Of a stretch of DNA of 64,000 nt, positions 44,728-45,724 are shown one piece after another; the stretch's first letter is position 1, and each line of letters starts with the position of its first letter. Location of the stretch: assembly GCF_900313035.1 (NCBI RefSeq), contig NZ_OMPS01000009.1, positions 62,103-126,102 on the forward strand. The letters run 5' to 3'. The notes beneath the pieces are model-generated. The model worked only from the letters and a program-made list of their open reading frames with translations, was not told the DNA's origin and did no database searches. The translations under genes and the position numbers were made by a program. The stretch comes from Ruegeria sp. EL01. GTDB taxonomy: Bacteria > Pseudomonadota > Alphaproteobacteria > Rhodobacterales > Rhodobacteraceae.

Positions 44728-45093
44728 TCAGTTCGTGATTGTGTAGGTTCCTCCTGATTTACCTTTACCTTTGTTGCGCGTGAACGTGACCTGATTGCCG
44801 TCAATTGTAACTTTTTGGCAGTCTTGGGGAATTTGCTTGCCACCAACAACCAGAGTTCGGCACCAGAAGCGTTTGTTCCAAGCCCAGGCGCCTTTGAATT
44901 TAACCTTGTCGCCGGTTTCACCGGTCAATTTGCCATCGGCAGAAATAATCACCCATGTGCCGCCATCCACCAGTTTTTTTCCTGCGACAGCTGCCAGAAA
45001 TTGATCCTCTTTCTTCAGATCCTTGGCGTCTAAGGTCTCTGCGGAAAGCAGAACGACACTGGCCACAACTGCCAACAAAGCAACAACTTTCAT
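44728..45093 (-). CDS. Small exported protein with Shine-Dalgarno in a hairpin
   Basis: From the ATG at 45093 the product is 121 residues: a signal peptide (MKVVALLAVVASVVLLSAETLDA) and a small basic beta-rich domain of about 95 residues with two cysteines (RFWCRTL, PQDCQKV) and a lysine/glycine-rich end (NKGKGKSGGTYTITN). I recognise no family with certainty; it has DUF995-like character. Its ribosome binding site GGGAG lies within the 3' arm of a perfect 11-bp hairpin. The tlpA gene ends 64 bases upstream on the same strand. Confidence 0.75.
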   Translation of the reverse strand: MKVVALLAVVASVVLLSAETLDAKDLKKEDQFLAAVAGKKLVDGGTWVIISADGKLTGETGDKVKFKGAWAWNKRFWCRTLVVGGKQIPQDCQKVTIDGNQVTFTRNKGKGKSGGTYTITN

Positions 45094-45095
45094 CA

Positions 45096-45128
45096 ATACT
45101 CTCCCGTTTAATGTGGCCGGGAGAGTAT
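45096..45128 (-). promoter_or_regulatory. Perfect 11-bp hairpin that sequesters the Shine-Dalgarno
   Basis: On the minus strand ATACTCTCCCG (45118-45128) and CGGGAGAGTAT (45096-45106) are perfect complements around an 11-base loop. GGGAG in the second arm is the ribosome binding site, seven bases before the ATG at 45093. No T-run follows, so it looks like translational control rather than a terminator, though it also lies between tlpA and this gene. Confidence 0.7.
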
Positions 45129-45157
45129 CATAATTCCGTTGGTTTGGTGAAAGGTTC

Positions 45158-45724
45158 TTAGCTTTCACCGCCAACGAGTGTCGAGATGATGGATTTCGCG
45201 CTATCCGAGTTCCATTCCGCGTCACCGATCAGCCGGGCGATTTCGTTGCCATCGGGGTCGATGATGACAGTGATTGGCAAACCAATCACACCCATCTCAC
45301 GCGCAACCGCTTGATTAGGGTCTTGGTGTCGGGGCAGATTATCGATGCCGTTTTCATCGAAGAATTTCTTGATGCCTGCCGGCGAGTTGCGACCAGTCGC
45401 CAGGGTCAAAACCTCGAATTTGTCGCCCCCGAATTCTTCCTGTAATTCAGCGATCTGGGGCATCTCTTTGCGGCAGGGGGCGCACCAGGTGGCCCAGAAG
45501 TTCAACAGCACATACTTGCCTTTGTAGTCCGCCAGTGTCGCGGTGCCGCCATCGTCTTCCAGTTCAAATTCAACCGCTTCGACTGGCTTCGGCTCTTTGT
45601 GGAGGATCAGACGCTTCAGGCTGCCATCGCGTAACGGCGCCAATGTCTCGGCATCGGTTGCCAAAGCCGCGTTTGCACCTAGCGCAAGGGCCATATAAAG
45701 GGGGATCAGACGAAATAGGCGCAT
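45158..45724 (-). CDS. TlpA-like thioredoxin-fold periplasmic protein
   Basis: The 188-residue protein starts [22 protein letters not shown] (signal peptide) and has the TlpA/ResA redox site [15 protein letters not shown] (C-x2-C), then [20 protein letters not shown] with the cis-proline. It acts as a thiol-disulfide reductase outside the cytoplasm, often for cytochrome maturation. Only 21 bases separate it from the divergent argH start, so the two promoters must overlap coding sequence. Confidence 0.93.

Follow-up and report, generated by a model that had tools for sequence, protein, structure and literature searches.

How is a gene translated when its ribosome-binding site is locked in a perfect hairpin? 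The question arises on the minus strand of the window (the whole 64,000-nucleotide stretch of Ruegeria sp. EL01 DNA that was analyzed), where a tlpA-like gene for a protein with a thioredoxin fold (45158-45724) is followed downstream by a small gene for a protein of 121 amino acids (44728-45093, start codon 45093-45091). The tlpA-like product matches AhpC-TSA in a profile search (E 1.2e-22) and scores 145.9 bits against the NCBIfam TlpA model, which does not reach that model's cut-off of 230. The small protein is probably exported, as its N-terminus by eye resembles a signal peptide. Its nearest named match is in Ruegeria faecimaris (78% identity), no Pfam family scored over its cut-off, no NCBIfam model matched, and no literature on the protein was found. 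A predicted model (mean pLDDT 76.7) resembles lipocalin-like barrels (VIA-align Z up to 10.3, rmsd 3.1 with 90 residues aligned), and Foldseek returned no match to it with E under 0.001. Two cysteines, C78 and C92, are invariant in 10 aligned orthologues and may be of interest beside a TlpA-like thiol-disulfide protein.

The hairpin between tlpA and the small gene

The initial annotation had placed a perfect 11-bp hairpin with an 11-base loop in the leader of the small gene, and the coordinates, the exact complementarity and the minus-strand fold all agree with that description. In the inverted repeat at 45096-45128, the 5' arm ATACTCTCCCG (45118-45128) is exactly complementary to the 3' arm CGGGAGAGTAT (45096-45106) across the 11-base loop (45107-45117), and the minus strand reads TG, 5' arm, loop, 3' arm, TG, ATG. 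The ribosome site GGGAG is present at 45105-45101 as annotated, inside the 3' arm and 7 nt from the ATG. Minus-strand RNA adopts the stem with a z-score of -5.03 (141 nt). No other perfect inverted repeat with arms of at least 11 and a loop of 3-15 bases occurs in the 64-kb window, where 0.1 would be expected as the mean over 20 dinucleotide shuffles of the window, and the dyad, even with up to three mismatches allowed, occurs nowhere else in the 5.3-Mb assembly. A looser dyad pattern brought up one other place in this genome, which lies within a coding frame and forms no stem. Just upstream of the hairpin, a second stem-loop in the minus-strand reading (CGTTGG/CCAACG and GGTGAAAG/CTTTCACC, 45137-45176) spans the tlpA stop codon (45160-45158) and by eye is not common to relatives.

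The stretch 3' of tlpA was compared in the 54 genomes of a genus search, the window's genome included. A small gene adjacent to tlpA and preceded by the ribosome-site hairpin is found in 26 of them, again counting the window's own; 22 copies were scored intact because their matches were nearly full-length and free of stops, and four are decayed (G022, G040, G045 and G050). One further genome (G016) has a diverged small gene behind tlpA with neither stem nor motif, and the other 27 have a different sequence after tlpA, frequently another gene preceded by a stem resembling a terminator. In genomes lacking the small gene (G001, G008, G012 and others; L087, L088, L074), the next gene often encodes a protein beginning MKPVVLLIG, with TGTGCTAnACT directly 5' of a terminator-like stem, for example AAACCGGCCC/GGGCCGGTTT. 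At those loci, a predicted promoter motif is packed together with a terminator-like stem. Two loci were found later and enter no count: G037, in which a 3' fragment of tlpA, the motif TGGTAGTCT, the stem and the small gene stand apart from the intact tlpA, and G058. The latter is one of four loci found in other genera with the small gene adjoining tlpA, and the sole one of them with motif and hairpin; the other three (G091, with a broken reading frame, G429 and G114) have neither.

Covariation and the strand of the hairpin

The initial annotation had looked to the complementary arms of relatives for confirmation, and there the hairpin is kept with covariation above that of shuffles. Pairing of each 5' arm with its own 3' arm gave a mean score of 17.1, compared with 10.7 for pairing with the 3' arms of other species, and none of 10,000 permutations of the 25 sequences used (G030 was left out) scored as high. 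In alignment A2, 27 double-change cells were counted versus 9.8 in shuffles, a number that none of the 500 shuffles reached; with the partner shifted by one, two or three columns, the count did not rise above 12. In some rows of A2 a gap is misplaced in the 3' arm, a bias that works against the stem. Two of the five covariation measures were not clearly above the shuffles; 97 of 500 shuffles had as many pairs with a double change, and 72 of 500 as many further pair types. On a tree of tlpA DNA, parsimony counted 26 double changes and 23 single changes that preserve a pair, and 21 changes that break one, over the 11 positions. The pair counts omit G030, since its stem and the -10 hexamer described below are offset from each other, although its fold still encloses the hexamer.

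A perfect dyad over a promoter motif, as seen in the window, would suit an operator bound by a dimeric regulator. The arms differ between species with compensation, however, and G-U cells outnumber A-C cells by 18 to 4 (positions 1-10 minus position 6; p = 0.004, uncorrected for kinship) in a test that was designed after the data were seen. The excess of G-U cells points to an RNA strand read in the tlpA direction and counts against a DNA operator, which we consider scarcely credible. Judged from sequence comparison, the inverted repeat forms a genuine hairpin in RNA transcribed in the tlpA direction.

When run over the 54 genomes, a covariance model of the hairpin returned the 25 sites it had been built from, as it must by construction, plus one of these again on the opposite strand; G030 and G037 were missed. 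An additional 26 weaker rows lie elsewhere (E 0.005 to 0.3). Ten of these were inspected, and three belong to a gene with weak TPR similarity; a fourth such row is from G017. The stem CTCCCTGTTGTTGCAGCAGGAG, present in the same setting at four loci (L140-L143, from G035, G019, G026 and G051), is a weak match to the model.

A promoter-like motif within the 5' arm

The 5' arm coincides with a predicted promoter. The extended -10 motif TGATACTCT (TG-A-TACTCT, 45122-45130) is conserved in relatives and begins 27 nt after the tlpA stop codon, and its -10 hexamer (45127-45122) lies entirely within the 5' arm. Across the 26 genomes, the T, G, T, A and last T of TGnTAnnnT are kept in 25, 25, 25, 24 and 26, and none of the columns from -28 to -7 of the motif-based alignment exceeds 21. 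The last T, invariant here, is absent from more than 60% of primary-sigma promoters in four alphaproteobacteria (PMC8407463). The TGNTANNNT element by itself is not rare, with 29 occurrences in the window versus 37 expected.

Conservation alone does not prove a promoter, since columns -6 to -2 (GAATC) are conserved like the motif (23, 26, 24, 21 and 19 of 26). Just upstream of the TG, 15 of the 26 genomes have GANTC, the site of CcrM methylation; the window has GAATT at this place (45132-45136) and not GANTC, and its genome carries a GcrA gene. A class of GAATC-marked promoters was also considered and rejected, as such promoters are not enriched (one in this genome versus none in the control, and between none and two in each of 21 genomes).

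In 24 of 25 sequences the hexamer retains its first T, although in eight of the 25 the partner base is also a T, which is unable to pair with it, and all six pair breaks placed at this position on the tree fall on the 3' side. Covariation at the hexamer's two free positions is among the strongest seen. Moreover, of the 28 genomes that lack the hairpin, 17 have TGnTAnnnT about as far behind tlpA. The motif is damaged in all four decayed copies versus one of the 22 others (G003), a difference with a Fisher p of 0.0003 in a comparison conceived after the data were seen. No -35 consensus emerged across the 26 aligned genomes, and a sigma-70 scan found no -35 element. The start site is predicted from spacing at the C-A step at about 45115-45114, 7-8 nt past the hexamer. 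A pyrimidine-purine step stands at 7/8 nt in 14 of 26 genomes and at 3/4 nt in 19 of 26, and since it is commoner at 3/4 it lends the predicted start little support. Taken together, sequence comparison supports the stem, its covariation, its strand and a promoter-like constraint on the 5' arm.

It was also proposed in the initial annotation that the leader is processed between tlpA and the small gene. A conserved intergenic stem would fit an RNase site, but such a site leaves the promoter-like constraint in the 5' arm unexplained, and we regard processing as highly improbable.

Transcript start and opening of the ribosome site

The mechanism by which the small gene might be translated would follow from where its RNA begins. 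Because the predicted promoter lies inside the 5' arm, RNA started from it would lack that arm, and the location of the motif suggests a switch that works through where transcription begins. We infer promoter activity, the start position, the occurrence of read-through and a difference in translation between the two RNAs. Read-through RNA from tlpA would carry both arms and fold, hiding the ribosome site of the small gene, which would stay untranslated. RNA from the gene's own predicted extended -10 promoter, which is written in the 5' arm, would begin in the loop without that arm, and its more open ribosome site could be translated. We think it fairly likely, on the sequence evidence, that a promoter-embedded hairpin sorts transcripts in this way by their start point. 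The exceptions (G016, and G091, G429 and G114 in other genera), the lack of a -35 consensus, the 21 pair-breaking changes and the paired ribosome sites in 14 of 39 homologues elsewhere count against it.

Calculated folds are consistent with this proposal. In the read-through RNA, the ribosome site lies in the 3' arm of a stable stem, and its unpaired fraction stays at or below 0.19 from 10 to 65 C in all 26 genomes, with a calculated median of 0.00 at 37 C. The own-start RNA, taken to begin seven bases past the hexamer, has a calculated median of 0.305 unpaired at 37 C and is thus still partly folded; by the same calculation it is more open than the read-through RNA at 37 C in 25 of the 26 genomes, the exception being G035. 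When the small gene's homologues at 39 other loci are considered, the ribosome site is paired upstream (at least 0.5) in 14, with a mean of 0.37, versus 26 of 26 and a mean of 0.84 behind tlpA, and the motif stands in range at a single one of these loci, although the mixed genera and mixed base composition of the 39 make the comparison only suggestive. The 39 include L114 (G429) and L046 (G114), both adjacent to tlpA, and L020, a second small gene behind tlpA in G016; L003, which has no start, was skipped, and L017 (G058) was kept out. Loci with about 300 bases upstream could conceal a more distant tlpA.

An alternative is that the hairpin is a cis-acting switch on one full-length mRNA, whether it works as a thermometer, as a riboswitch or by binding a protein or small RNA. 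A ribosome site in a conserved stem and a recurring T-rich stretch in the loop (TTTAA-like) would suit such a switch, and the initial annotation had named a thermometer and a riboswitch among its candidates. The thermometer does not survive the calculated temperature series, as the stem is far too stable to open over the range given above. Nor is a riboswitch favored, because a bare stem with a short loop would leave no room for a described ligand-binding domain, and no Rfam family reached its gathering score within the window; the arm sequences, moreover, vary with compensation. Since the small protein is probably exported, it is unlikely to bind its own mRNA. We find a cis-acting switch of any of these kinds very improbable.

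A more serious alternative is that the hairpin serves mainly as the 3' end of tlpA, as a terminator or stabilizing stem, and that the next promoter and ribosome site overlap it through compact packing, with no regulatory purpose. The stem is kept in all four decayed copies of the small gene, which suggests some service to tlpA, and many genomes without the small gene carry a terminator-like stem at the same place. Like an intrinsic terminator, the hairpin has a G+C-rich stem, and a T-run of at least four follows within the 12 nt before the start codon in 9 of the 26 genomes, where tlpA transcription might also end at the stem. In the other 17, however, there is no such T-run. The window is among these, with a longest run of two T's and no U-tract of the intrinsic-terminator kind after the stem; by the T-run rule its run is too short, so the stem would not terminate tlpA there. 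Unlike in an intrinsic terminator, the 3' arm is the ribosome site, and a terminator alone leaves the frequent pairing over the whole ribosome site unexplained. We consider a mere 3' end for tlpA unlikely, yet a good deal less so than a cis-acting switch.

The proposed sorting of transcripts by start point has an experimentally tested precedent in gene e and I-TevI of phage T4. Reviews of the phage describe ribosome-site stems for e, soc, 49 and I-TevI (PMC3014915, PMC2988022). For e and I-TevI, the long early RNA conceals the ribosome site, and transcripts from a late promoter situated at the structure's 5' strand lack that strand and are translated well; synthesis from gene e is reduced 100-fold by its structure (PMC3014915, PMC2988022). 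I-TevII, I-TevIII, segB and Aeh1 mobE likewise have a late promoter within a ribosome-site hairpin. The anatomy of the locus behind tlpA is that of T4 e and I-TevI, in that upstream RNA would hide the ribosome site and own-promoter RNA would lack the 5' part of the stem, here as a prediction from sequence. The locus differs from T4 in lying on a bacterial chromosome, in having an extended -10 instead of a late promoter, in the absence of phage timing and in perhaps doing double duty as the end of tlpA, and its purpose is probably different. By analogy, the hairpin may be classed as a variant of the T4-type promoter-embedded ribosome-site hairpin. A related principle protects IS10- and IS200-type elements from stray expression of their transposase, since read-through RNA from outside folds and is poorly translated. 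In contrast to these elements, no mobile element was seen at the window locus. The part of the IS10 paper PMC5006887 that was covered holds no passage on read-through. Among titles and the beginnings of abstracts, with subscription journals mostly outside the scope, no report of a promoter-embedded ribosome-site hairpin in a bacterial chromosome was recognized.

A similar arrangement was seen before the gene with weak TPR similarity (L164-L172), whose product has TPR matches below Pfam cut-offs. All nine close orthologues (84-100% identity) have TGnTAnnnT 35-36 bases 5' of the ATG, and at least four of the nine (L164-L167) have a ribosome-site stem that includes the motif; at that spacing the motif is absent from all 11 more distant loci that were listed. 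A bolder and more tentative idea, which we hold to be possible but would not bet on, is that the hairpin is a triple-coded insulator that combines the 3' end of the upstream gene with the -10 element and the ribosome site of the next gene, that only internally started RNA is translated, and that the device arose again before the weak-TPR gene, which would hint at recurrent gene separation.

If transcripts are indeed sorted by their start point, a device of phage T4 would be at work in ordinary bacterial genes. The coverage of such a gene in RNA-seq may then reflect untranslated read-through, and about 27 natural covarying variants would be at hand for measuring the constraints that promoter, stem and ribosome site place on one another. 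Neighboring chromosomal genes would be insulated from each other without a separate terminator, and the start site of the RNA would decide whether it is translated.
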